DNA of 64,000 bases from Sphaerotilus mobilis (GTDB taxonomy: Bacteria > Pseudomonadota > Gammaproteobacteria > Burkholderiales > Burkholderiaceae_C), in assembly GCF_004216565.1 (NCBI RefSeq), contig NZ_SGWV01000008.1, positions 806,001 to 870,000 on the forward strand, written 5' to 3'. Below, piece after piece: positions 3,451 to 18,631 of this stretch. Position 1 is the first letter of the stretch. Each line of letters opens with the position of its first letter. The notes beneath the pieces were generated by a model. The model ran no database searches, was not told the DNA's origin, and saw only the letters and a program-made list of their open reading frames with translations. A program made the translations under genes and the position numbers.

Positions 3451-5372
3451 GTGACACCCAACAGGTTCTCACCTTCAAGGCAGGTGCGAGACAACTGGAC
3501 GACCTGCGCGAAGGCGCCGTGATCATCTCCGGGCGTGGAGCCGGCTTTGCCAGAAGGATCCTCAAGAAGATCGTCCTGCCGCAAGGCAACTTCCTGCTGG
3601 ACACCCTCCCGGTCAGCTTGAGCGACATCATCGAGGACGGAACGCTGATCGGCGGCTATGCGACAGCAGGTTCAGGGACCGAAGGCATCGCCCGAGTCCT
3701 GAGTCTGGGACAGGGCGTGACGCTGGCCAATCGCGCTCGCCCCTTGGGCGCGTCCAGCGAGTTCAATGTCGACGTTCCGCTCAACGCCGAAGAGACGTCG
3801 AAGATCACCGGGAAGATCAATGTCGAGTGGAATCCGGAGTTCGCCGTCGACTTCCGGCTGGGAAGTGGCCTGAAGGAGGCCGAGCTGCTGGTCAACCCGA
3901 CCGTGCGACCCGATCTGTCCTTCGTCAAGGGACCAGAGGACATCGAGAAGGAAGTCCTGTTCGACCTCGGCGTATTCGAGTTGACACCGTTCACGATCCA
4001 GGTCGGCTTCGTCCCCGTGGTGGTGGTTCCAACCGTGAAGGGGTATGCCAAGGTGTCGGCCAAGGGCGGCGTTCAGGTGAACTTCGCAAGTGGCTATTCC
4101 CTGCAGGGCAGCTATGGCGCTCACTACCGCAAAGGATCGGGATGGGACGGGGTGTTCAGCACGCAACTTGACGGCAACTTCACGCCGGTGGGTGCTGTCA
4201 AGATCGAAGGCGAGCTGGGTGTTGGCGTCTACATGGCAATGGCGGTCTACAACGTCATCGGACCCTTCATCCAGGTCGGTCCGTATCTGCGAGCGACTGG
4301 GGAATTGAACACCGCCAGCGAGACGGGCCTGTGCAAGAAGTTCCGCGCTGACCTCGGCATCGCCGCCAAGGTCGGAGGCAGCTTCAAGGTCTTGAGCTGG
4401 TATGAATCGAAGCTCGAACTGAGCCTGATCGACAAGGTCGTGAAGAACCTCGTGGACACACAATCGTCAAGCTGCAACGACACCACGCCCCCCTTGTCTC
4501 CTGAGGGATTGAACGCCGTGGCAACCGGGTCCCGCACGATCGAACTGAGCTGGACGCCATCCACCGACGAAGGCGGCCTGCGAGGCCATCAGGTCGAACG
4601 CGACGGGGTCGTCGTGGCCCTCGCGAGGGAAGGGAAGCACGTGGATGCGTCATTGCAAGCAGGTCACGAACACTGCTATCGAATCATTGCCGTCGACCTG
4701 TCCGGCAATCAATCCCTGCCCAGCACCCGCGCATGTGCGCGCACATCGGCGACCGACCGGACTGCACCCACCGTTCCAGCCCAGGTCACGGCGACGGCGA
4801 CGTCCACAACCGCGATCCACTTGAGCTGGCAAGCAAACTCGGATGACGTCGGCGTGATCGGCTATGTCGTCAGCGCCAACGGCAAGCGTCTGCGCAGCCT
4901 GGCTGACACATCGATGGACATCGGAAAGCTCACACCTGAGACGAACCATTGCTTGGTGATCGAAGCCTTCGACGCCATGGGCAACGTGTCGCCCCCCAGC
5001 GAGCCGGTGTGCGTCTCGACCCTTCCCCCCGATCAGGCCGCCTGGACCATGCAGCTCGGATGCGTGGGACGCGATCACAACATCAGCCGGAACATCGATC
5101 TGGACGTTGATGGCGCCAGCCTGGTCAATGTCACGGGCGAGGCCATCGACTACAGCGGTTCGGCACTCGCCTACCACCTGCATGGCAGCTACGAACCCTC
5201 GACACACGTGCTGGACGCGCAGATCGACTGGACCTTCTCGAACTCGACGGCGGTGCGCATGGACCGTTTCACCGCACAGTTGTCCACCGATGACACAGGC
5301 CCGGTCACGATGACGCAGGTTCTGAAGACAGGCTGCGACGCGAACATCCGCTTCGTGCAGAACACGCGCTGA
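3285..5372 (+). CDS. Frameshifted surface protein, main part with two fibronectin type III domains
   Basis: This is the larger, downstream part of the lipoprotein gene that begins at 3034. The ATG at 3285 is only the first in-frame start available after the frameshift; sense similarity begins near 3333. A roughly 380-residue beta-rich region of unknown function follows (VVLSDATLDELVSD..., VIISGRGAGFARRI, then Gly/Val-rich strands). Next come two fibronectin type III-like domains at about 4479-4749 (LSWTPSTDEGGLRGHQVERDG...YRIIAVDLSGNQS) and 4762-5022 (LSWQANSDDVGVIGY...IEAFDAMGNVS). A C-terminal domain of about 110 residues holds a Cys pair. Base composition is less GC-biased than in neighbouring genes, so the region may have been acquired. 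The function is probably extracellular binding; the substrate is unknown. Confidence 0.65.
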   Translation: MDAGSLDGVRQRFRGHVSVTVAEARTVQPFFARSAAPQIHADVVVLSDATLDELVSDTQQVLTFKAGARQLDDLREGAVIISGRGAGFARRILKKIVLPQGNFLLDTLPVSLSDIIEDGTLIGGYATAGSGTEGIARVLSLGQGVTLANRARPLGASSEFNVDVPLNAEETSKITGKINVEWNPEFAVDFRLGSGLKEAELLVNPTVRPDLSFVKGPEDIEKEVLFDLGVFELTPFTIQVGFVPVVVVPTVKGYAKVSAKGGVQVNFASGYSLQGSYGAHYRKGSGWDGVFSTQLDGNFTPVGAVKIEGELGVGVYMAMAVYNVIGPFIQVGPYLRATGELNTASETGLCKKFRADLGIAAKVGGSFKVLSWYESKLELSLIDKVVKNLVDTQSSSCNDTTPPLSPEGLNAVATGSRTIELSWTPSTDEGGLRGHQVERDGVVVALAREGKHVDASLQAGHEHCYRIIAVDLSGNQSLPSTRACARTSATDRTAPTVPAQVTATATSTTAIHLSWQANSDDVGVIGYVVSANGKRLRSLADTSMDIGKLTPETNHCLVIEAFDAMGNVSPPSEPVCVSTLPPDQAAWTMQLGCVGRDHNISRNIDLDVDGASLVNVTGEAIDYSGSALAYHLHGSYEPSTHVLDAQIDWTFSNSTAVRMDRFTAQLSTDDTGPVTMTQVLKTGCDANIRFVQNTR

Positions 5373-8533: not shown

Positions 8534-9286
8534 TCAGCTCGACGCCGCCGGTGCGGGCGCAGCGGCATGCGCGCCGCCCAGGAACAGGCGCTCGATGTGC
8601 GGGTCGTTCAACAACTCGTCGGCGGGCTTTTGCAGCACGCGGCGGCCGGACTCCAGCGCGATCGCCTCGTCGGAGATCTTCAGCGCGCTCTTGACGTTCT
8701 GTTCGACCATCAGCACGGTGGTGCCCTGGTCGGCCAGTTGGCGCAGCAGCTTGAAGACGTCCTGCACGACCAGCGGGCTCAGGCCGATCGACGGCTCGTC
8801 GATCAGCAGCACCTTGGGGCGCAGCAGCAGCGCACGTCCGACTTCGAGCTGCTTTTGCTCGCCACCGGACAGCGCGGCCGCTGGGCTGTTGATGCGCTCC
8901 TTGACGCGCGGGAAGCGGTCCAGCACCTCGGGGATGCGCTCGCGCGTGGTCTTCATGCCCAGCGTGATGCCGCCGAGCTCCAGGTTCTCGTAGACGCTGA
9001 GCTGGCCGAACAGGTTGCGGCCCTGCGGCACGAAGGCGATGCCGTGCTGGACCAGCAGGTCCTTGGCATTGGCGCCGGTGATGTCCTGACCGTCCAGCTT
9101 GATGTGACCCGAGCGCACCTTGAGCAGGCCGAACAGCGTCTTGAGCACCGTCGACTTGCCCGCGCCGTTCGGGCCGATCAGCAACGTGATCGCGCCGCGT
9201 CGGGCCTTGAACGTCAGGTTGTTGAGGATCATGAAATCGCCGTAGCCGGCGACGACCTTGTCGAACTCGATGGCGTGATCAGACAT
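8534..9286 (-). CDS. livF: Branched-chain amino acid-type ABC transporter, ATP-binding protein LivF
   Basis: A 250-residue ATPase of the HAAT importer family. Walker A GPNGAGKST is at residues 38-46, the Q-loop region is FVPQGRNLFGQLSVYENL, the ABC signature LSGGEQ starts at 139, Walker B VLLIDEP is at 159-165 and the switch region VLMVEQN follows. Length and motifs are typical of LivF, which pairs with LivG to drive the LivH/LivM channel. It is the last gene of the minus-strand unit, 84 bases after livG; the gap holds a small GCCCCC-AAC-GGGGGC hairpin. HAAT systems also import aromatic acids, amides and urea, and the context here (AroE-like and dehydroshikimate-type genes) favours an aromatic or alicyclic acid over amino acids. 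Confidence 0.88.
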   Translation of the reverse strand: MSDHAIEFDKVVAGYGDFMILNNLTFKARRGAITLLIGPNGAGKSTVLKTLFGLLKVRSGHIKLDGQDITGANAKDLLVQHGIAFVPQGRNLFGQLSVYENLELGGITLGMKTTRERIPEVLDRFPRVKERINSPAAALSGGEQKQLEVGRALLLRPKVLLIDEPSIGLSPLVVQDVFKLLRQLADQGTTVLMVEQNVKSALKISDEAIALESGRRVLQKPADELLNDPHIERLFLGGAHAAAPAPAASS

Positions 9287-9370
9287 GTCGGGACTCCTGC
9301 CGGGCCGCCCCTGAGGAGGCCTGCGCCCCCAACGGGGGCTGCGTATGAAATGAGCGCGGGGGCACCATGA

Positions 9371-10129
9371 TCAGCTGCCCAGGTAAGCGTCGAGGACTTG
9401 CTTGTTGCCACGGATCTCGGCGGGCGTGCCGATGGCCATGACCTCGCCTTCGACCATCACCATGATGCGGTGGCACAGGTCCATCACGAAGTCCATGTTG
9501 TGCTCGATCACCACGAAGCTCCCCTTTTGCTTCTGGTTGAGCTGCTTGAGCAGCGTGCTGATGCCGCCCACCAGGCTGGGGTTGACGCCGGCGCAGGGCT
9601 CGTCGAGCAGCACCAGGTCCGGCTCGCTCATGAAGGCCATGGCGATGTCGACCAGCTTCTGCTGGCCGTAGCTCAGCTCGCCAGCCTTCTTGTCGGCAAC
9701 ATGACGGATGCGGAACAGGTCGATCAGTTCATCGGCCTTGCCGCCCAGGCCCGAATCGGTGGGCGCGAACATGCGGCTGAACAGGCTGCCACGGTGTTCC
9801 TGCGCCGCCACGATCAGGTTGTCGCGCACGGTCATCTTGCCGAACACCTGCAGGGTCTGGAAGGTGCGACCGACGCCGCGCCGATTGAGTTCCAGCGGAC
9901 TCAGGTTGGTGATGTCCTGGCCCTTGAGCTCGATGCGGCCGGCGTCCGGCGTGATCTGGCCGAGCACGCTGTTGAACATGGTCGTCTTGCCCGAGCCGTT
10001 CGGGCCGATGACACCGAAGATCTCGCCGGGGCGGACCTCGAACTCGACGCCATTGACCGCGCGGATCGCGCCATACGACTTCTTCAGGCCGCTGACCTTC
10101 AGCAGGGCCGGTCCTTGTACGGGACTCAT
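9371..10129 (-). CDS. livG: Branched-chain amino acid-type ABC transporter, ATP-binding protein LivG
   Basis: A 252-residue ATPase. Walker A GPNGSGKT is at 42-49, the signature LSYGQQ starts at 152, Walker B LVLLDEP is at 172-178, and FVVIEHNMDFVM carries the switch His. It has the characteristic LivG insertion after the Q-loop (IVAAQEHRGSLFSRMFAP...) and the C-terminal extension MVEGEVMAIGTPAEIRGNKQVLDAYLGS. The start overlaps the livM stop by four bases (ATGA), indicating translational coupling. It works as a heterodimer with LivF beneath the LivH/LivM membrane pair. Confidence 0.9.
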   Translation of the reverse strand: MSPVQGPALLKVSGLKKSYGAIRAVNGVEFEVRPGEIFGVIGPNGSGKTTMFNSVLGQITPDAGRIELKGQDITNLSPLELNRRGVGRTFQTLQVFGKMTVRDNLIVAAQEHRGSLFSRMFAPTDSGLGGKADELIDLFRIRHVADKKAGELSYGQQKLVDIAMAFMSEPDLVLLDEPCAGVNPSLVGGISTLLKQLNQKQKGSFVVIEHNMDFVMDLCHRIMVMVEGEVMAIGTPAEIRGNKQVLDAYLGS

Positions 10130-11142
10130 GACTGCGCTCCTTGAACAGCTTCGGCGGCTTCGGCCGATTCAGCCGCTGCGGCGGACGCGGCACGTGCGGC
10201 CGAGGCCTCACGCGACAGGCGACGGGCACGCAGGCGGTCCGGGATGCTCAGCAGGCCGTCGGGCAGCCACAGCATCAGCAAGATGACGGCGGTGCCGAAC
10301 ACGAACAGGTACCAGGCCTGTGCGAAGCGCAGCCACTCCGGCAGCAGCACGCCGACCGCCGCACCCAGCACCGGGCCGAAGAAGTAGCCCGAGCCTCCCA
10401 GCACGACCATCAGGTACATCATGATCGACGAGCCCACCGTGAACGGCGCCGGCTCGATGAAGCCGACCAGGCTGGCAAACAGCGCACCGGCCACGCCCGC
10501 ATAGACCGCGCCGATGGCGAAGGCCAGCAGGGTGTAGGCCTGCACGCTGACACCCAGGCTCTCGGCCCGGATCGGGTTGTCGCGCAGGGCGGTGAAGGCC
10601 TTGCCCCAGGGCGAACGCAGCAGCGCGAACAGCAGGGCACCGAGGATCAGGGTCACGCCCAGCACGAAGTAGTAGTAGCTGAGGTTGCTGTCCAGGCTGA
10701 TGCCGAACAGGCCCGGCCGGGTGATGCCGTTGATGCCGAAGGTGCCACCGGTCAGCCATTCCTCGTTGCGCATCACCAGCCAGACGGCGGTGTTGAAGCC
10801 CAGCGTGGCGAAGGCCAGATAGATGGTCTGCACCCGCAGGGCCGGGAAGCCGACCAGCAGGCCGATGCCGAAGCAGCCCAGCATCGCCAGCGGCAGGCCG
10901 ATCCAGAAGCTGATGCCGTGCTGCAGCAGGATCGCCACCGTGTAGGCGCCGATGCCGAAGAACGCCGCATGGCCGAGCGACTTCTGGCCGGCGTAGCCGA
11001 TGGTCAGGTTCAGGCCCATCGTCGCGACGATGAAGACCAGCCAGTAGGTGAACAGGTAGATGCCGTAGTTCTTCAGCATCGGGGGCACCGCGAGCATCAC
11101 CAGGATGATGAGCAGCAGGCCGAACTTGTGCAGCGGTTTCAT
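10126..11142 (-). CDS. livM: Branched-chain amino acid-type ABC transporter permease LivM
   Basis: A 338-residue inner-membrane permease with about nine to ten hydrophobic segments. It shows the conserved LivM signature LTIGYAGQKSLGHAAFFGIGAYT and the cytoplasmic coupling region LRDNPIRAESLGVS. The C-terminal tail after residue 310 is an Ala/Glu-rich low-complexity stretch (SREASAARAASAAAAESAEAAEAVQGA), longer than usual. It lies 13 bases after livH and overlaps livG by four bases, inside the importer operon. Confidence 0.9.
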   Translation of the reverse strand: MKPLHKFGLLLIILVMLAVPPMLKNYGIYLFTYWLVFIVATMGLNLTIGYAGQKSLGHAAFFGIGAYTVAILLQHGISFWIGLPLAMLGCFGIGLLVGFPALRVQTIYLAFATLGFNTAVWLVMRNEEWLTGGTFGINGITRPGLFGISLDSNLSYYYFVLGVTLILGALLFALLRSPWGKAFTALRDNPIRAESLGVSVQAYTLLAFAIGAVYAGVAGALFASLVGFIEPAPFTVGSSIMMYLMVVLGGSGYFFGPVLGAAVGVLLPEWLRFAQAWYLFVFGTAVILLMLWLPDGLLSIPDRLRARRLSREASAARAASAAAAESAEAAEAVQGAQS

Positions 11143-11155
11143 GGTCGTGTGCTCC

Positions 11156-12031
11156 TCAAACCTTGCGCATTTCCTTCTTGCCCAGCAGCCCTTGCGGCTT
11201 GAACAAGATGACGATCATGAAGAGCACCAGCGCCACCGCGTCCTTGTAGGACGGCGAGATGTAGGCCGCCGCCAGGTTCTCGGCCACGCCCACGATCACG
11301 CCGCCCAGCAACGCACCGCGGCTGTTGTTGAAGCCGCCGATGATGGCCGCGAAGAAGGCCTTGGTGCCCAAGCCCTCGCCCATGTCGAACTTGGCAAGGT
11401 AGACCGGCGCAACCAGCAGCGCGGCGGCACAGGCCAGCAGCGCGTTGATGGCGAAGGTGTAGAAGATCATGCGGGGCACGTTGATGCCCAGCACGGTCGC
11501 GCTCTCGGTGTTCTGCGCCACGGCCTGCATCGCGCGGCCGGTGACCGTCTTGCTCAGGAAGGCCTGCGTGACCAGCACCAGCGCCAGCGCGAAGACCAGT
11601 GTGCCGATGTCGGCCAGCGTGATCGTCACGCCAGCGATGTTGAACAGCTTGTCGGCGAACAGGCTGGGGAAGGGATGCGCCTCGGCGCTGTAGCCGGCCC
11701 GCACGCCGTTGCGCATGGCGATCGACAGGCCGATGGTGGCCACCACGATGGGCATCATGCCGAAGCGCAGCAGCGGGTCGGCGATGCCGCGCTTGAAGGC
11801 CCAGCCGAGCACGAACACCGCCAGCAGGCAGGTCGCGACAAAGGCCGGCAGCAGCGACAGTCCAGCGGCCTGAAAGCCCAGCATCATGAAGGCGGGCAGC
11901 ATGACGAACTCGCCCTGGGCGAAGTTGATCGTGCCGCTGGCCTGCCAGAGCAGTGTGAAGCCCAGCGCCGCCAGCGCGTAGACGCTGCCGGTGGCGAGGC
12001 CGGAGAAGAAAAGCTGGAAGAAGTCGGTCAT
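11156..12031 (-). CDS. livH: Branched-chain amino acid-type ABC transporter permease LivH
   Basis: A 291-residue inner-membrane permease with about eight membrane segments. The LivH family motif is near the N-terminus (GSVYALAALGFTLLWQASGTINFAQGEFVML) and the EAA-like coupling loop later (MQAVAQNTESATVLGINVPRMIF). It forms the translocation channel with LivM. It follows livJ after a 158-base gap that contains two stable hairpins, while livM follows after only 13 bases. The importer membrane and ATPase genes therefore form a tight sub-unit of the operon. Confidence 0.9.
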   Translation of the reverse strand: MTDFFQLFFSGLATGSVYALAALGFTLLWQASGTINFAQGEFVMLPAFMMLGFQAAGLSLLPAFVATCLLAVFVLGWAFKRGIADPLLRFGMMPIVVATIGLSIAMRNGVRAGYSAEAHPFPSLFADKLFNIAGVTITLADIGTLVFALALVLVTQAFLSKTVTGRAMQAVAQNTESATVLGINVPRMIFYTFAINALLACAAALLVAPVYLAKFDMGEGLGTKAFFAAIIGGFNNSRGALLGGVIVGVAENLAAAYISPSYKDAVALVLFMIVILFKPQGLLGKKEMRKV

Positions 12032-12049
12032 GCGAGCACCGGAGGTTGG

Positions 12050-12072
12050 ACAGGCTCAACGCGTGAGCCTGT
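12050..12072 (-). promoter_or_regulatory. Intercistronic hairpin upstream of livH
   Basis: Perfect 9-base arms ACAGGCTCA / TGAGCCTGT around the loop ACGCG lie 19 bases before the livH start in the transcript direction. This is the second of two hairpins in the livJ-livH gap and may influence RNA processing or livH expression. Confidence 0.4.
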
Positions 12073-12153
12073 GCGGCCGGGCATGAGGCAAGCCCGCGCC
12101 GAGCTGGCAAACGCCGGTCGGCCGTCGGTGGCAAACGTCCTCATGCCGGCGGG

Positions 12154-12175
12154 CACGCCTGCGGGCGCAGGCGTG
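12154..12175 (-). terminator. Intercistronic hairpin after livJ
   Basis: Perfect 9-base GC-rich arms CACGCCTGC / GCAGGCGTG with a GGGC loop begin 14 bases after the livJ stop. There is no T-tract. Hairpins here in binding-protein operons commonly protect the abundant binding-protein mRNA and lower downstream permease expression; that role is inferred. Confidence 0.45.
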
Positions 12176-12189
12176 GCCAGGGCTGTGCC

Positions 12190-13344
12190 TTACTTGGCAG
12201 CGCCCAGGGCGGGCAGGATTTCCTTGACGACCTGGCGGCCGTCCTTGACCTCGACCAGGAAGCTCTCGCGGTCCAGGTCGCCGTTGGCGTCGATCGAGAC
12301 GTCATAGAGCACGCCGGGGTTCTTGGCGGCCTTGATGCTCAGGCCGTGCAGCGCGGCGGCAACGGCCTTGCGGTCAACCTTGCCGACCTTCTCGATGGCG
12401 GCCTTCAGGATGTACACGCCGGTGTAGCCCTTGATGCCGTTGTGGTCCGAGATGGTGTTGGTGGCGGCGAAGAAATTGCCCTTGAACTTGATCATCTGCG
12501 GGTTGGGCGCATCGACCGTCAGGCCGACGTGGGCGGTCGCACCGTTGGCGGCATTGCCGGCCAGCTCGATCACCTTCTGGCCGGTCAGCGTGGTCTCGCC
12601 GACGATGGGCTTGTCATAGCCTTGCTTGCGCAGTTCGCGCAGCGCACGGGCCGATTCCTCTTCGTTGGTGTAGACGAACAGCGCATCGGCGTTGGATTGC
12701 TTGGCCTTGAGCACCGGTGCCGAGAAGTCGACCTGGCCGCTGTCGGTCGAGATGTCGGCCACAACCTTCACGCCATTGGCTTCCAGCGCCTTGGTGATGG
12801 CGTCACGGCCACCCTTGCCGAAGTCGTTGTTCACGAACATGACGGCGATCGTCTTGGCCTTCAGGTTCTTGGCGATGTAGCGCGCCACCTTGGGCATCGC
12901 GGTCGACTGGGTGAAGCTGGTGCGGAAGATGTAGGGGTTGCCCTTCTGGGTGATCGCCGCAGCCTCGCCGCCGGTGAAGTTGATCACCTCGGCGCGCTGG
13001 GTCTCGGCCATGCTGACCATGATCGAGCCGGAGAAGACCGGGCCGAAGACCGCGAACACGTCGTCATCGACGGCCTTGGACGCCAGGCCCTTGGCCACGC
13101 CCGGGTTGCTCTGGGTGTCGGCCGAGCTGTGCTCGATCTTCTTGCCCAGGATGCCGCCGGCGGCGTTGATTTCCTTGACGGCCAGGTCGACGCCGTTCTT
13201 GAACATCGTGCCAGCGCTGGCGCCCGCACCCGACAGCTCGTAAAGGCCGGCGATCTTGATGGTGTTCTGGGCCTGTGCCAGACCGCTGGCGCACAGGGCG
13301 GACAGGGCGGCGGCGGCGATGAGGTGGCGGCGGTTGAAGCTCAT
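12190..13344 (-). CDS. livJ: ABC transporter periplasmic substrate-binding protein, HAAT type
   Basis: A 384-residue type I periplasmic binding protein. The signal peptide is NRRHLIAAAALSALCASGLAQA, with cleavage after AQA; the mature protein begins QNTIKIAGLYELSGAGASAGTMFKNGVDLAVKEINAAGGI, the canonical Leu/Ile/Val-binding-family N-terminus. A strong AGGAG site precedes the ATG at 13344. It delivers ligand to LivHM. The amino-acid-binding family also covers aromatic acid and amide binders; its position directly after the AroE-like gene suggests a shikimate/quinate-like ligand, which is inference. The gene is followed by a stable hairpin that separates it from livH. Confidence 0.88.
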   Translation of the reverse strand: MSFNRRHLIAAAALSALCASGLAQAQNTIKIAGLYELSGAGASAGTMFKNGVDLAVKEINAAGGILGKKIEHSSADTQSNPGVAKGLASKAVDDDVFAVFGPVFSGSIMVSMAETQRAEVINFTGGEAAAITQKGNPYIFRTSFTQSTAMPKVARYIAKNLKAKTIAVMFVNNDFGKGGRDAITKALEANGVKVVADISTDSGQVDFSAPVLKAKQSNADALFVYTNEEESARALRELRKQGYDKPIVGETTLTGQKVIELAGNAANGATAHVGLTVDAPNPQMIKFKGNFFAATNTISDHNGIKGYTGVYILKAAIEKVGKVDRKAVAAALHGLSIKAAKNPGVLYDVSIDANGDLDRESFLVEVKDGRQVVKEILPALGAAK

Positions 13345-13390
13345 GGGTGGTCTCCTGGGGACAAGAAATGGCGTCAAGCGCCGGCGGGTT

Positions 13391-13434: not shown

Positions 13435-13458
13435 GCGCGTCAGGCGGCGCGTCAGGCG
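13435..13458. repeat. 12-base tandem duplication over the aroE-like stop codon
   Basis: Two perfect copies of GCGCGTCAGGCG. The stop codon of the AroE-like gene (13452-13454) lies in the second copy, and the first copy gives a second in-frame TGA 12 bases downstream. Confidence 0.7.
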
Positions 13459-14351
13459 GCGCACGGCAGCGCGGAAATCGTCGCGCTCGCCGCGCTCGCC
13501 GGCTCGCTGCGCATCAGCGCACGCACCGGTTCGAGATCGGCCTGGGTGGCCCGGGCCAAGGCCTCGAAGCCGAAGAAGCGCAGGTACTCGGGCACCTGCT
13601 GGATCAGCATCTCGTGACCCGGATGGGCGGTGATGCCGCGCGCCGCGCACGCCCGCAGCAGCGGCGTGCTGGCGTCCTTCATCAGGATGTCGACCACGGC
13701 GGCGCTGCCGTCGAGGCGGCGCACGTCGAAGGGCATCGGGTCGCTGTCGCGCAGGCCCAGCGGGGTGGCATTGATGACGAGGTCGTAACCAGCCGGGTCG
13801 GCGCTGGCCGGCGTGCTGACCTGGACCGAGCTGATGCTGCGCAGGCGGTCGGCGGCGGCAGCGGCGCGGCCCGCGTCGACGTCGTGGATGGAGAGTTCGG
13901 CCAGCGCGCGCTGGACCAGCGCACAACCGATCGCGATGCCGGCGCCACCGGCACCGACGACCAGCACCCGCGCGCCGGTGCAGGCGATGCCGAAGTGGTC
14001 GAGCGCCTTGACGAAGCCGATGCCGTCGAACAGCGCCCCCTCGATCGTGCCGTCGACGTTGCGGCGCACGGCGTTGACCGCTTCGGCCGTGCTGCCGCTC
14101 AGGTCGCAGTGGTCGAGCAGGCCGGGCAGCGCGGTCTTGTGGGGGATCGTGACCCACAGACCGTCGACGTTGCGGGCTTGAAAGACACCCCGCACAAAAG
14201 CGTCGAGCTGACCGGCCGGCACCTGCATCGGCACCAGCACCGCGTCGACGCCGGCCTGGGCGAACAGCGGGTTGAAGACCTCGGGCGCACGCACCTGGGC
14301 CACGGGATCGCCCAGGATGAGGAAGACGCGGGTGGTGCCGGAGATGTGCAT
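13452..14351 (-). CDS. Shikimate/quinate dehydrogenase-like protein (AroE family, variant)
   Basis: A 299-residue AroE-family oxidoreductase. The catalytic Lys is in VTIPHK (residue 72), the Asp in FDGIGF (109), and the nucleotide-binding loop is VVGAGGAG (133-138). Two features are unusual. The shikimate-gripping Ser-x-Ser of AroE is replaced by V20-R21-A22 (GDPVAQVRAPEVFN). The end of the second Rossmann strand reads IHDVD with acidic residues, where NADP-using AroE has a basic NR(T) motif, suggesting NAD preference. Together with the adjacent importer and dehydroshikimate-type genes this looks catabolic, not biosynthetic, and possibly acts on a related alicyclic acid. The ATG at 14351 fits the family N-terminus. 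It is first in the minus-strand unit with livJHMGF. Confidence 0.78.
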   Translation of the reverse strand: MHISGTTRVFLILGDPVAQVRAPEVFNPLFAQAGVDAVLVPMQVPAGQLDAFVRGVFQARNVDGLWVTIPHKTALPGLLDHCDLSGSTAEAVNAVRRNVDGTIEGALFDGIGFVKALDHFGIACTGARVLVVGAGGAGIAIGCALVQRALAELSIHDVDAGRAAAAADRLRSISSVQVSTPASADPAGYDLVINATPLGLRDSDPMPFDVRRLDGSAAVVDILMKDASTPLLRACAARGITAHPGHEMLIQQVPEYLRFFGFEALARATQADLEPVRALMRSEPASAASATISALPCAA

Positions 14352-14420
14352 GGACGGTCGCTGCAAAGTGCGCGAACGATAGGCAGCGCGCCGGTCGGTC
14401 ACAAGCTGGTTTCACCTCGT

Positions 14421-14457
14421 GTGCGCGACAATCGCGCACCTGGCGCGATCATCGTGC
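14421..14457. promoter_or_regulatory. Two adjacent palindromes, probable IclR-family operators
   Basis: GTGCGCGA-CAA-TCGCGCAC (14421-14439) has perfect 8-base arms. GCGCGAT-C-ATCGTGC (14443-14457) matches at 6 of 7 positions and shares the CGCGAT/ATCG core. They lie between the divergent aroE-like (start 14351) and IclR (start 14498) genes, the expected place for IclR-type control of both. Confidence 0.5.
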
Positions 14458-14497: not shown

Positions 14498-15262
14498 ATG
14501 GACACGCCCATCGACCGCAAGGACATCATCGACGGCCTCGGCAAGGGCTTGCGGGTCATCGAGGCCTTTGACGATGACCACCCCCGCCTGACGCCCAGCG
14601 AGGCGGCGGCGCTGTCCGGCCTGACCCGCACGGCCGCCCGGCGCTACCTGTTGAGCCTCGTGCACTTTGGCTATGCCGACGGCGACGGCAAGCACTTCTG
14701 GCTGCTGCCCAAGGTGCTGCGGCTGGGTCAGAGCTACCTCGGCGCGGCACGTTTGCCCCGACTGGTCCAGCCCTTCATCCAGCGCCTGTCGCAGGCCACC
14801 GGCGAGACCTTCAACTTCAGCGTGCTGGACGGCCACGAGATCGTCTACCTGGCGCGCAGCAACAGCCCGCGGGTGATCTCGATCGGCTTCCAGCCCGGCG
14901 CGCGGGTGCCGGCCCATGTGGTGACGCCGACCATGCCCATCCTGGCGACCTACACCGACGAGGCGCTGGCCGAGTGGATCGCGGCCCATGAATTCACCGC
15001 CTTCGGCCCGCAGACCCAGACCGACGCGGCGCTGTTCCGCGACGCGGTGCTGTCGGCGCGGCGGCTGAACTTCTGGGTCACCGAGCAGCAGCTCGAACCC
15101 GGTCTGCGCGGCATCGCCGTGGCGATCAAGGACCGCAAGGGCATCTGCCGGGGCGCGATCGGCTCGACCATGCCGATGCAGAACGAGGGTCGGGAGGCGA
15201 TGGTGGCGCGCATCCTGCCCTTGCTGCAGGAATGCGCGCAGGCCTTGCGGCCGGTCGTTTGA
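14498..15262 (+). CDS. IclR family transcriptional regulator (PcaR/PobR-like)
   Basis: A 254-residue regulator. The N-terminal winged helix-turn-helix is GLGKGLRVIEAFDDDHPRLTPSEAAALSGLTRTAARRYLLSLVHFGYA. The C-terminal effector-binding GAF-like domain has FNFSVLDGHEIVYLARSNSPRVISIGFQPGARVPAHVVTPTMPILA, and late motifs LNFWVTEQQLEPGLRGIAVAIKDRKG. This is the subgroup that includes PcaR, PobR and related controllers of protocatechuate and hydroxybenzoate catabolism. It is divergent from the aroE-liv unit across two palindromes and convergent with the dehydratase-like pair, so it is the likely pathway-specific regulator. Whether it activates or represses cannot be read from the sequence. Confidence 0.88.
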   Translation: MDTPIDRKDIIDGLGKGLRVIEAFDDDHPRLTPSEAAALSGLTRTAARRYLLSLVHFGYADGDGKHFWLLPKVLRLGQSYLGAARLPRLVQPFIQRLSQATGETFNFSVLDGHEIVYLARSNSPRVISIGFQPGARVPAHVVTPTMPILATYTDEALAEWIAAHEFTAFGPQTQTDAALFRDAVLSARRLNFWVTEQQLEPGLRGIAVAIKDRKGICRGAIGSTMPMQNEGREAMVARILPLLQECAQALRPVV

Positions 15263-15294
15263 GCCGCTCGGCCGGCGCGCGTCCTGCGGGACGG

Positions 15295-16194
15295 CTAACG
15301 CGGCCGGCGCAGCGTCATCCGCCCGGGCAGCGGCACCGAGCGACGCAGCACCTCCTCGCCCAGCCACTGGGCCGAGCGGTGGGCGCGCTGGGCGACCAGG
15401 GGCAGCGGGAGCTGCTGGTAGTCGTCGTTGAAGACCTCGAAGCTGTAGTCGCCGCGGTAGCCGATGGCGTCCAGGCGCGAGACCAGGTCGGCCACCTGGG
15501 CGCTGTGCACGCCCTCGCCCGGGAAGACGCGGAAGTGGCGCGCGGTCGACATGCGCTCCTCCACCGAGCGGATCTCCTGCCACATGAAGTCGGCCAGCTG
15601 GACCAGGAAGATGCGGTCGGCATCGAGCTGGTCGATCTCGTCGAGCGAGGTGTCGGTGGCGAGGATGTGGAAGGAGTCGATGCCCAGACCGAGGTTGGGC
15701 GCGTCGGCGCGGCAGACCACCTCCCAGGCGGTCGTGAACTCGCTGACGGTGCGGCCCCAGGACAGGCCTTCATAGGCCACCTTGATGCCCAGCGGCACCG
15801 CCAGCATGGCCAGCTTGCGCAGGTCGCGGGCCAGCGCATCGATGTCCTGGCTGGCGTGCTGGCTGGTCGACGAGCAGGCCAGCAGCACCGGTGCGCCCAG
15901 TGCATGCGCCATTTCCAGCATGGCCTTGGCGATGTCGACCTTGTAGTCGTGCAGGTGCCCGGCTAGGCCCTCAAAGTCGCGCAGCACCTGGAAGCCGGTG
16001 ACGCGCAGGCCGCTGTCCTTGACCAGCTGCACAGCGGCGTCGATGCCCTGTGGGTGGCCCACGATGTCGTTGGCCTTGAGCATGACCTGGGTGAAGCCGG
16101 CCGCGCGGATGGCCTGCAGCTTGGCCTCAAGCGGCCCGGCCAGCGAGATGGTGTCCATCCCGAAATCGTCGATGTAGCCGTGGCGCTGGGTCAT
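15295..16194 (-). CDS. TIM-barrel sugar phosphate isomerase-like protein, probable 3-dehydroshikimate dehydratase
   Basis: A 299-residue xylose-isomerase-like TIM barrel. Its sequence follows the N-terminal domain of QuiC/QsuB-type 3-dehydroshikimate dehydratases: E142 (VAYEGLSWG), D173 and H176 (GIDSFHILA), Q199 (FLVQLADF) and E253 (YSFEVFNDDY) occupy the expected metal and catalytic positions. These enzymes convert 3-dehydroshikimate to protocatechuate, the step linking quinate/shikimate degradation to ring cleavage. The ATG at 16194 (MTQRHGYIDDFG) is preferred to an upstream frame that runs into the neighbouring gene. It lies 17 bases after the HPPD-like gene; in known QuiC1-type enzymes the two domains are fused in one chain, with this domain first. 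Confidence 0.75.
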   Translation of the reverse strand: MTQRHGYIDDFGMDTISLAGPLEAKLQAIRAAGFTQVMLKANDIVGHPQGIDAAVQLVKDSGLRVTGFQVLRDFEGLAGHLHDYKVDIAKAMLEMAHALGAPVLLACSSTSQHASQDIDALARDLRKLAMLAVPLGIKVAYEGLSWGRTVSEFTTAWEVVCRADAPNLGLGIDSFHILATDTSLDEIDQLDADRIFLVQLADFMWQEIRSVEERMSTARHFRVFPGEGVHSAQVADLVSRLDAIGYRGDYSFEVFNDDYQQLPLPLVAQRAHRSAQWLGEEVLRRSVPLPGRMTLRRPR

Positions 16195-16211
16195 CGTCGC
16201 GCTCCGCCGGC

Positions 16212-17114
16212 TCAGGCCGACGCGCCGGCATCGGCCGGCACATCGTGGTGGACCAGCTCGAACATCACGTCGCCCAGCCAACTGCGTGTGAGCGCGCCGC
16301 GCTCGTCGGCATGGACCTGGCGGCTGGCGACGAACTCGACGCCCCGCGCGGCCAGAGCCGCGACGGCGGCGGGCACATCCGGCGTGCCCAGGCCGAGGCG
16401 CTGCAGCGATTCACTGCCCTCGATGTCGACGATGCCGGGCTCCGGCTCGATCAGCTGCAGGTAGAAGGTGCCGCAGGGGCTGCGCAGGATGCGGCCCTTG
16501 GGCAGGATGCCGAAGCGCTGCTCGTCGGGCAGCTCGGCGAAGCCGAACAGCTCGCGGTAGAACTCGCACCAGTCGGCCATGCGGTCGATGCCGATGTACT
16601 GGACCAGGCCGAACCAGTGCAACCCGGCGACGGCCGGCGGCTGCTTGTCGACGGTCGGGATGGGCACGAAGTCGACATCCCAGATCGAGAACTCGCGGAA
16701 GCGGTCGACGAAGTAGATCCGGCTGGTGCCCACACCGTGAATGGCCGGGATGTTCAGCTCCATCACCTCGACATGCGTGGGCACGGCCCAGGCACCACGG
16801 TCGAGCGCCCGGCGGTAGGCCGCAGCGGCATCGCGCACCCGCAGCGCGACGGCGGCGATCACCGGCGTCTCGGTCGGCTGGACCGAACGCGGCATGCTGC
16901 TGGTGTGGGCGTTGATGACGACGTTCATGCGGCCCTGGCGGTAGAGCAGCACCTCGCGCGAGCGGTGCCGCGCGATCGGACGGAAGCCCATCATCTCCAG
17001 CACCTGACCCAGCGCCTGCGGTCGAGTGGTGGCGTATTCGATGAACTCGATGCCTTCCATGCCCAGCGGGTTGGGCCACTCGCCCAGGTCTTCGCGGTCG
17101 GCGCTGTCATGCAT
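16212..17114 (-). CDS. 4-hydroxyphenylpyruvate dioxygenase-like VOC protein
   Basis: About 300 residues forming two vicinal-oxygen-chelate halves, resembling 4-hydroxyphenylpyruvate dioxygenase and especially the C-terminal domain of QuiC1-type dehydroshikimate dehydratases. Of the three iron ligands of true dioxygenases, H166 (LHWFGLV) and E286 (MFELVHH) are present, but the second His position (QHIA in HPPD) reads LQRLGL, with R239. Ordinary HPPD activity is therefore doubtful and an accessory or altered role is more likely. The start at 17114 has GAGGAG nine bases upstream; an ATG at 17135 is possible. It sits just before the TIM-barrel partner gene, with which it probably works as a split version of the fused enzyme. 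Confidence 0.72.
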   Translation of the reverse strand: MHDSADREDLGEWPNPLGMEGIEFIEYATTRPQALGQVLEMMGFRPIARHRSREVLLYRQGRMNVVINAHTSSMPRSVQPTETPVIAAVALRVRDAAAAYRRALDRGAWAVPTHVEVMELNIPAIHGVGTSRIYFVDRFREFSIWDVDFVPIPTVDKQPPAVAGLHWFGLVQYIGIDRMADWCEFYRELFGFAELPDEQRFGILPKGRILRSPCGTFYLQLIEPEPGIVDIEGSESLQRLGLGTPDVPAAVAALAARGVEFVASRQVHADERGALTRSWLGDVMFELVHHDVPADAGASA

Positions 17115-17208
17115 GGGGGGCTGCTCCTCGGTCATCGGTTCGGGTGTCCAGGTCGATAGGTTAGCCGCTGGCACGGCCAGACTTCATGCCAAGGCGGACC
17201 ACCATGCA

Positions 17209-17233
17209 GAAGGGCCGCACAAGGCGGCCCTTC
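17209..17233 (-). terminator. Terminator-like hairpin downstream of gltA
   Basis: Perfect 10-base arms GAAGGGCCGC / GCGGCCCTTC with the loop ACAAG lie between the gltA stop (17318) and the start of the HPPD-like gene. No T-tract follows on either strand. Confidence 0.55.
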
Positions 17234-17280
17234 GAGGGGGGTGGGCATGCGGCCCGCCGGAGGTGCGAACAGCGTGTGTT

Positions 17281-17322
17281 GATCAGCGATCAGCGATCAG
17301 CGATCAGCGATCAGCGATCAGC
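17281..17322. repeat. 7-base tandem repeat, six perfect copies, over the gltA stop codon
   Basis: GATCAGC repeats six times without interruption; a seventh degenerate copy (GCGCAGC) follows. The gltA stop codon (17318-17320) lies in the sixth copy. A 7-base unit would shift frame on slippage upstream of the stop, but most of the array is in the untranslated 3' side. Confidence 0.9.
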
Positions 17323-18631
17323 GCGCAGCGAGCGGCGTCACGTCGCGACGGGCCGAGCCGGCGAAGAGCTGGCGCGGACGGCCGATCTTGTACTCGGGGT
17401 CGCCGATCATCTCGTTGAGCTGGGCGATCCAGCCGACCGTGCGGGCCAACGCGAAGATCGCGGTGAACAGGCTCACGGGGATGCCGATGGCGCGCTGCAC
17501 GATGCCCGAGTAGAAATCGACGTTCGGGTAGAGCTTGCGGGCGACGAAATACTCGTCTTCCAGCGCGATCTTCTCGAGCGCCATGGCCAGCTTGAACAGC
17601 GGGTCGTTCTCGAGGCCCAGGGCACCGAGGACTTCATGGCAGGTCTCGCGCATCAGCTTGGCACGCGGGTCGTAGTTCTTGTAGACGCGGTGTCCGAAGC
17701 CCATCAGCTTGACGCCGCTGTTCTTGTCCTTCACCTGGCGGATGAACTCGCCGATCTTCTCGACGCCGCCCATCTGCTGGATCTCGCCAAGCATGTTCAA
17801 GCAGGCCTCGTTGGCACCGCCGTGGGCGGGGCCCCACAGGCAGGCCACGCCAGCCGCGATGGCTGCGAACGGGTTGGTACCCGACGAGCCGCACAGGCGC
17901 ACGGTCGAGGTCGACGCGTTCTGCTCGTGGTCGGCGTGCAGGATGAAGATGCGGTCCAGCGCACGCACCAGCACATCGTTGGGCTCGTAGTCCTCGCAGG
18001 GCGTCGCGAACATCATGTGCATGAAGTTCGCGGTGTAGCTCAGCTTGTTCTTCGGGTACATGTAGGGCTGGCCAGCCGAATACTTGTAGGCCATCGCCAC
18101 CAGCGTGGGCATCTTGGCGATCAGGCGGATCGCCGCGATCTCGCGGTGCTGCGGGTTATTGATGTCCGTGCTGTCGTGATAGAAGGCCGACAGGGCGCCC
18201 ACCAGGCCGGTCATCACCGCCATCGGGTGCGCGTCACGACGGAAGCCACGCAGGAAGAACTGCATCTGCTCGTTGACCATCGTGTGGTTGGTCACACGGC
18301 TGACGAAGTCGGCCTTCTGCGCCACGTTGGGCAGATCGCCGTAGAGCAGCAGGTGGCAGGTTTCGAGGAAGTCGCAGTTCTCGGCCAGCTGCTCGATCGG
18401 GTAGCCGCGGTAGAGCAGCTCGCCCTTGTCACCGTCGATGTAGGTGATCGTCGAGTTGCACGAGGCCGTGCTCAGGAAGCCGGGGTCGTAGGTGAACTTG
18501 CCGGTCTGCGCGTAGAGCTTGCGGATGTCGATGACATCCGGGCCGATCGTGCCTTTGTAGATCGGCAGGTCCATCGCGGCGCTGCCGTCGGAGAACGATA
18601 GCGTCGCCTTCACGTCGGAGGGAGTCATCAT
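17318..18631 (-). CDS. gltA: Citrate synthase (type II)
   Basis: A 437-residue citrate synthase, which condenses oxaloacetate and acetyl-CoA at the entry of the TCA cycle. Length matches the hexameric Gram-negative type. Signatures include [21 protein letters not shown] near the N-terminus, the active-site stretch [31 protein letters not shown] and [15 protein letters not shown]. Two consecutive ATGs occur (18631 and 18628) with a GAGGA site upstream; I keep the first. It is 86 bases or more downstream of sdhE on the same strand and is probably the last gene of the gntR-sdhCDAB-sdhE unit, closed by the hairpin at 17209. The stop codon lies in an unusual 7-base tandem repeat. Confidence 0.95.

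Follow-up and report, generated by a model that had tools for sequence, protein, structure and literature searches.

A conserved two-gene unit of Burkholderiales as a probable two-subunit 3-dehydroshikimate dehydratase with a predicted iron-free pseudo-HPPD partner

Results

An HPPD-like gene and a QuiC1-type barrel gene lie side by side

The window, that is, the whole analysed stretch of 64,000 nucleotides from Sphaerotilus mobilis, contains two adjacent genes that encode an HPPD-like protein (HPPDl) and a TIM barrel of the QuiC1 type (Table 1). Translation of the window showed that the HPPDl gene comes first and that the barrel gene lies downstream in a different reading frame; the coordinates, strand, gene order and 17-nt gap given in the original prediction were all correct. 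HPPDl matched the Pfam HPPD N-terminal domain with 156 bits and also contains a glyoxalase-type half, and the barrel matched Pfam AP_endonuc_2 with 99.6 bits. The NCBIfam QuiC model NF042435, which describes the full-length two-domain enzyme, was not reached by either protein: the barrel scored 173 bits, far below the cut-off of 1200, and HPPDl 88.7 bits. Similarly, HPPDl scored 97.6 bits with the HPPD model TIGR01263 and did not reach its cut-off of 277. A promoter and terminator scan of positions 15200-17400 found none.

Table 1. Positions of the gene pair and of the neighbouring genes in the window
Feature	Position	Strand	Remarks
Branched-chain-amino-acid-type ABC transporter	8534..13371	(-)	Binding protein, two permeases, two ATPases
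Shikimate/quinate dehydrogenase-type gene	13452..14402	(-)	Conserved part has its first in-frame ATG near 14351
IclR-type regulator, PcaR/PcaU/PobR kind	14498..15262	(+)	Convergent with the pair; 236 bits against a family cut-off of 284.75
QuiC1-type TIM barrel, 299 aa	15295..16194	(-)	Predicted 3-dehydroshikimate dehydratase; metal ligands E142, D173, Q199, E253
Intergenic gap HPPDl/barrel, 17 nt	16195..16211	(-)	Same operon presumed
HPPD-like partner HPPDl, 300 aa	16212..17114	(-)	Two VOC halves; iron triad His/His/Glu changed to Gly169/Arg239/Glu286

The pair is conserved in Burkholderiales

Together, HPPDl and the barrel make up a two-gene unit that is conserved among Burkholderiales. HPPDl was found at 59% identity or more in 98 of 299 genomes of the window's family, where the next matches listed, at 45% identity or less, fall in the range of ordinary HPPDs, and at E 1e-60 or better in 4 of 130 genomes of the order. 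The split-type barrel was present in 6 of 398 genomes of the phylum, five times at 60% identity or more and once (G020) at 47%, all within the same taxonomic order. Because the two genes, their order and their strand recur in about 100 further genomes, the pairing goes beyond chance. Among the named carriers are Leptothrix, Piscinibacter, Rubrivivax, Aquabacterium, Polaromonas, Limnohabitans and Ideonella, and the pair also occurs on plasmids of Vitreoscilla filiformis and Massilia putida. The closest named relative was Leptothrix discophora, with 92% identity in HPPDl and 96% in the barrel.

Strict pairing of the two genes was borne out in the sequence rows, which were gathered and are not a random draw. 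The barrel followed on the same strand for 119 of 120 HPPDl ORFs, a set with overlapping loci in which some genes count two or three times, and came after HPPDl in 45 of 46 loci of the named set; both exceptions (L009 in the larger set) were contig ends. Contig ends aside, HPPDl was always accompanied by a barrel gene among these ORFs and loci. The median gap from HPPDl to the first aligned barrel residue was 21 nt, and one locus (L194) has 841 nt between the genes. G020 carries a related barrel in a shikimate cluster without HPPDl, indicating that HPPDl is dispensable in some cases. That locus (L062, 8679-13337) holds an IclR gene, a shikimate dehydrogenase gene, the 47%-identical barrel and an AroQ-like gene.

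The neighbouring genes point to a quinate/shikimate pathway

We then compared 47 neighbourhoods of about 12-21 kb, among which one G017 region appears twice (L040 and L312) and L062 is included although it has no HPPDl. A shikimate dehydrogenase-type gene was present in 36, AroQ in 27, an IclR relative in 27, an ABC or TRAP transporter in 31, and PcaB/PcaC or LigA/LigB in 11. At least one gene of the shikimate or protocatechuate pathway was found in 40 of the 47, which supports the quinate/shikimate setting, and none of the genes sought was found in 3. These genes constitute the route from quinate/shikimate to protocatechuate. The ABC transporter in the window presumably takes up quinate- or shikimate-like acids.

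A scan for IclR-type motifs returned 41 matches against a mean of 66.6 in shuffles and therefore gave no signal. On reading the sequence, we noticed two IclR/PcaU-like palindromes at 14421-14457, in the divergent promoter that separates the shikimate dehydrogenase gene from the IclR gene, and a similar site was not found ahead of HPPDl. The accessible part of a survey of IclR regulogs documents that COGs of quinate/shikimate and 4-hydroxyphenylpyruvate metabolism are often co-regulated (PMC8222616). HPPDl genes annotated as HPPD may be part of that signal; the same part of the survey speaks of 4-hydroxyphenylpyruvate metabolism and does not mention a two-gene dehydratase.

The barrel retains the QuiC1 active site

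The nearest solved relative of the window barrel, in sequence and in structure, was the two-domain QuiC1 5hmq. The predicted barrel model (pLDDT 87.5) had 5hmq as its top structural match, with Z 36.0 and an rmsd of 2.3 over 278 residues, in agreement with a barrel of the QuiC1 dehydratase type; the second match was IolI, with Z 32.5. Identity to 5hmq and fused relatives was 34-38%. A grouping with unrelated sugar isomerases was also looked for, and in the tree the barrel stood apart from nine isomerase-like outgroup barrels.

To compare active sites, we used the ten QuiC1 residues given in the accessible part of the QsuB paper (PMC7442255) and an alignment from which rows with fewer than 240 aligned residues were left out. 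The window barrel keeps nine of the ten: R72, L105, E142, L144, D173, H176, Q199, R222 and E253. The four metal and catalytic residues named in the original prediction are among them, E142, D173, Q199 and E253 aligning with E134, D165, Q191 and E239 of QuiC1. The tenth, Ser206 of QuiC1, is Ala218 in the window barrel. Of 97 split barrels 93 have Ala at this position, and of 29 fused barrels 27 have Ser. Split barrels also have a longer loop ahead of R222; given these two differences, another substrate is conceivable.

HPPDl has lost two of the three iron ligands of HPPD

In an alignment that leaves out the truncated pieces L024, L048 and L119, the first iron-ligand His is replaced by Gly and the second by Arg in all 99 HPPDl sequences, and the Glu is kept in all 99. 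Ordinary HPPDs had His/His/Glu in 28 of 28. All 28 HPPD-like domains of fused QuiC1 kept the first His; the second was kept in 24, with Gln in its place in 3 and a gap in 1, and the Glu was kept in 27. The complete iron triad was retained in 24. When 35 further HPPDl rows were added, Gly/Arg/Glu was present in 133 of 134, the exception being L311 with Ser/Arg/Gly, which points to a partner protein without HPPD-type iron binding. Arg239 indeed stands in place of the second iron-ligand His, as originally proposed; the replacement of the first His, by Gly169, had been overlooked. We looked for a restored triad in the proper alignment and found only Glu286 left. The former iron site is itself conserved across HPPDl as Gly/Arg/Glu together with an F-G-x-V-Q motif.

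The predicted HPPDl model (pLDDT 80.9) has the two-VOC-domain HPPD fold. Its best structural matches were HPPDs, with Z 29.6 over 271 residues to 7x8e, and 5hmq gave Z 25.9; by sequence, HPPDl scored 139.6 bits with free-standing HPPD versus 83.2 bits with the QuiC1 domain. HPPDl also lacks two parts of HPPD, namely one segment of roughly 33 residues and the C-terminal helix. Since two iron ligands are replaced and both of these parts are absent, HPPDl is, judged from its sequence, very unlikely to be an actual HPPD. In both of the two public records that we opened it is annotated as '4-hydroxyphenylpyruvate dioxygenase', a name that the lost ligands make very unlikely.

The pair and a fused QuiC1 coexist in some genomes

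Besides the pair, the genome of the window contains a full fused QuiC1 with an intact barrel (G000:C2:487111-489120) and an ordinary HPPD (G000:C3:694184-695269). The HPPD-like domain of this fused QuiC1 (L036) reads His-Gln-Glu and is one of the 3 of 28 fused domains with Gln. With the first three candidates per genome scored, a fused QuiC1 at E <1e-100 was detected in 39 of 399 family genomes. Among the matches listed, both types occurred together in 19 of the 399, and a fused QuiC1 accompanied the intact split barrel in 11 of 123 genomes. In the other 112 the pair was the only QuiC1-type dehydratase detected among the matches listed, where "not detected" means three candidates scored per genome, some genomes being incomplete, and does not equal proven absence. 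On the Massilia plasmid, the split and fused forms lie in separate clusters. In L057 (G022) and L058 (G150), a fused QuiC1 is followed directly by HPPDl and then by a strongly changed barrel, upstream of LigA/LigB.

The barrel domain comes first in all 29 fused chains that matched both queries. An inverted fusion, suggested by long open frames beside HPPDl, was rejected given this barrel-first order in 29 of 29 chains, and the frames were read as GC-rich extensions.

HPPDl stays conserved beside changed barrels

Seven catalytic residues were assessed in 136 barrels, namely L057, L058 and 134 labelled as split, of which one has no HPPDl. All seven were kept in 126, indicating that barrel catalysis is usually under selection, and ten barrels had altered residues in the alignment, which is what we call changed. 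E142 is Lys, Gln or Arg in all ten, and E253, R222, R72, D173, H176 or Q199 are altered as well in various sets. The ten represent four separate losses on the tree, subject to the long-branch warning that applies to the barrel trees, and all are still open frames beside HPPDl. Among the matches listed, a fused QuiC1 was found in 8 of the 10 changed-barrel genomes versus 11 of the 123 intact ones (Fisher's p 1.5e-6, kinship ignored; two of the four losses are without a detected fused QuiC1). This enrichment is as expected if both forms catalyse one reaction. In G017 and G695, the two changed-barrel genomes concerned, no fused QuiC1 was detected among the first three candidates scored.

We next compared the divergence of the two proteins. 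The contrast in conserved columns was used in place of dN/dS because dS appears saturated in these high-GC genomes: pairs with dN >0.2 show dS of 0.43-0.73, and ratios from different sets cannot be compared. For nine of the ten changed barrels, the adjacent HPPDl deviated at 0-3 of 77 conserved columns, where HPPDl of intact pairs averaged 0.37 and reached at most 4. The same nine barrels deviated at 4-49 of 100 columns, where intact ones averaged 0.57 and reached at most 11. The tenth, L311, deviated at 19 columns in HPPDl and 31 in the barrel. The barrel/HPPDl distance ratio was 1.02-1.49 in the nine and 0.94 in L311; 122 intact pairs averaged 0.81 and did not exceed 0.98. Since HPPDl stays conserved beside changed barrels, its role probably extends beyond helping the adjacent barrel in catalysis. 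Candidate roles are a joint complex with fused QuiC1, ligand sensing, and iron-free chemistry at Arg239/Glu286.

Two of these loci deserve description. In the G017 barrel, 4 of 98 conserved columns are changed (E142Q, D173G, R219E and R222G), a pattern for which a new function would be as likely as a loss of function. The corresponding stretch (L312, 7950-13225) contains an acyl-CoA dehydrogenase-like gene, HPPDl, the changed barrel, a CoA-transferase-like gene and a shikimate dehydrogenase gene, and this operon possibly serves a new substrate. L311 (G695, 8661-10444) is the most divergent pair, with HPPDl at 42% identity and the barrel at 48%, the latter having two metal-ligand positions occupied by Lys and Leu.

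Discussion

We consider it probable that the pair is a two-subunit 3-dehydroshikimate dehydratase of quinate/shikimate catabolism, with HPPDl as an iron-free pseudo-HPPD partner. In this mechanism, the barrel would hold a divalent metal through E142, D173, Q199 and E253 and would eliminate water from 3-dehydroshikimate to give protocatechuate, as published for QuiC1/QsuB. HPPDl would be a dedicated, shortened HPPD relative without iron chemistry that assembles or tunes the barrel in a putative complex. Its role would be structural or regulatory, and the old iron site would have been remodelled around Arg239/Glu286 and the conserved F-G-x-V-Q. We counted in favour of the two-subunit dehydratase the nine of ten active-site residues, the 5hmq match, the pairing, the gene setting, the 112 of 123 genomes without a detected fused QuiC1 and the loss of the triad; we counted against it the fused QuiC1 in the window's genome, the Ser206Ala change with the longer loop, the conserved HPPDl beside changed barrels, and G020. 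The QsuB paper, in the part accessible to us, reports that the HPPD-like domain is dispensable for activity and affects oligomer state and kinetics (PMC7442255). Without this domain, QsuB had an approximately two-fold lower Km and three-fold lower kcat, an altered type of product inhibition, and was mostly monomeric; that part of the paper describes what the HPPD-like domain does as still unknown and proposes a role in oligomerisation (PMC7442255).

How the pair arose can be argued in two ways. The pair may be a QuiC1 that was split, with the gene order reversed and the iron site subsequently lost from the HPPD part, an origin that we regard as plausible but somewhat short of an even chance. 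Both domain types are shared with QuiC1, and in the rooted HPPD tree HPPDl and the fused clade group weakly together (64/58); three alternative arrangements were not rejected (p-AU 0.31, 0.289 and 0.345). However, the structure and bit scores place HPPDl nearer to free-standing HPPD, although slow change of HPPD could explain this too, and the HPPDl stem is long in the two HPPD trees (1.32 and 0.92 changes per column). In the barrel tree with nine outgroup barrels, the split (99/97) and fused (96/92) barrels form sister clades with joint support of 93/89, and the deepest row on each side, L062 and L190, has no HPPD-like partner in the stretches read. These two rows speak against fission and hint at a single-domain barrel ancestor that was joined twice by an HPPD, with long branches making the placement unsure. 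No HPPD-like match was found near the lone barrels L190-L193 in the stretches fetched around them. One of these, L192 (G414, 4277-5107), is a QuiC1-like barrel of 35% identity in a 1.1 Mb genome and is close to that of L193.

Separate recruitment also belongs to a broader proposal, namely that the unit is built around an iron-free pseudo-HPPD with a selected role of its own (sensor, scaffold or new chemistry), recruited apart from QuiC1, while the barrel is usually a dehydratase whose metal site was lost at least four times as the pair persisted. We consider this unlikely. A related explanation, which we find distinctly unlikely, makes HPPDl the functional core, binding or converting a quinate/shikimate intermediate without iron as a sensor, carrier or metal-independent enzyme, with the barrel as an obligate scaffold that is catalytic in most lineages only. 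The four independent losses of barrel catalytic residues, the conservation contrast beside nine of the ten changed barrels, the lack of barrel-less HPPDl except at contig ends and the conserved former iron site are all consistent with such a core. On the other hand, 126 of 136 barrels keep all seven residues, both proteins have diverged in L311, and any ligand or activity of HPPDl is putative.

The Ser206-to-Ala exchange and the differing loop also bear on whether the barrel acts on another related substrate, such as a cyclohexene or cyclohexane carboxylate or a polyol/keto acid. Differing substrates would explain why some genomes (19 of 399 family genomes among the matches listed) keep the pair and a fused QuiC1, and the G017 operon with its acyl-CoA dehydrogenase- and CoA-transferase-like genes fits as well. 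Nevertheless, the metal ligands and other QuiC1 active-site residues are kept, the setting consists of shikimate dehydrogenase, AroQ and protocatechuate genes, and most intact-pair genomes have no detected fused QuiC1 among the matches listed, which leaves this explanation quite doubtful. That the window pair is a decaying leftover, redundant beside the fused QuiC1 of its genome as changed barrels in some other lineages with both types might suggest, is highly improbable and was rejected as the sole explanation because all catalytic residues are present; HPPDl keeps Gly/Arg/Glu, and both frames are open and closely matched in Leptothrix discophora.

The observation is more general than the original prediction could know. 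What makes the proposed two-subunit dehydratase of interest is a pseudo-HPPD that can be separated from the barrel, together with the natural experiments that other lineages provide. With the HPPD-like part as a separate protein without an iron site, its contribution becomes testable, since either subunit can be supplied or left out. Natural controls exist in the lineages where HPPDl is conserved beside a changed barrel and in the one lineage whose barrel lacks HPPDl.

We found no description of a two-gene form of the dehydratase among the open-licence papers listed. According to the accessible part of a published account, AsbF-type and fungal Qa-4-type dehydratases are one-domain barrels encoded by their own gene with the same class of reaction (PMC9324987), in which they resemble the split barrel; that part describes AsbF without mention of an HPPD-like partner, and the split barrel matched QuiC1 best. 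HPPDl shares the two-VOC fold with HPPD (TIGR01263, Pfam PF14696) and is up to 45% identical to HPPDs of the family, but it differs in the replacement of two of the three iron ligands and in the missing C-terminal helix. With QuiC1 (P. putida, 5hmq) and QsuB (C. glutamicum), represented by NF042435, the pair has in common the barrel type, the HPPD-like part and the pathway setting. The founding paper is reportedly Peek et al. 2017. Unlike QuiC1 and QsuB, which are single chains with a C-terminal HPPD-like domain, the window encodes two genes with the HPPD-like gene first, and its HPPD-like part is shorter and lacks the iron triad.
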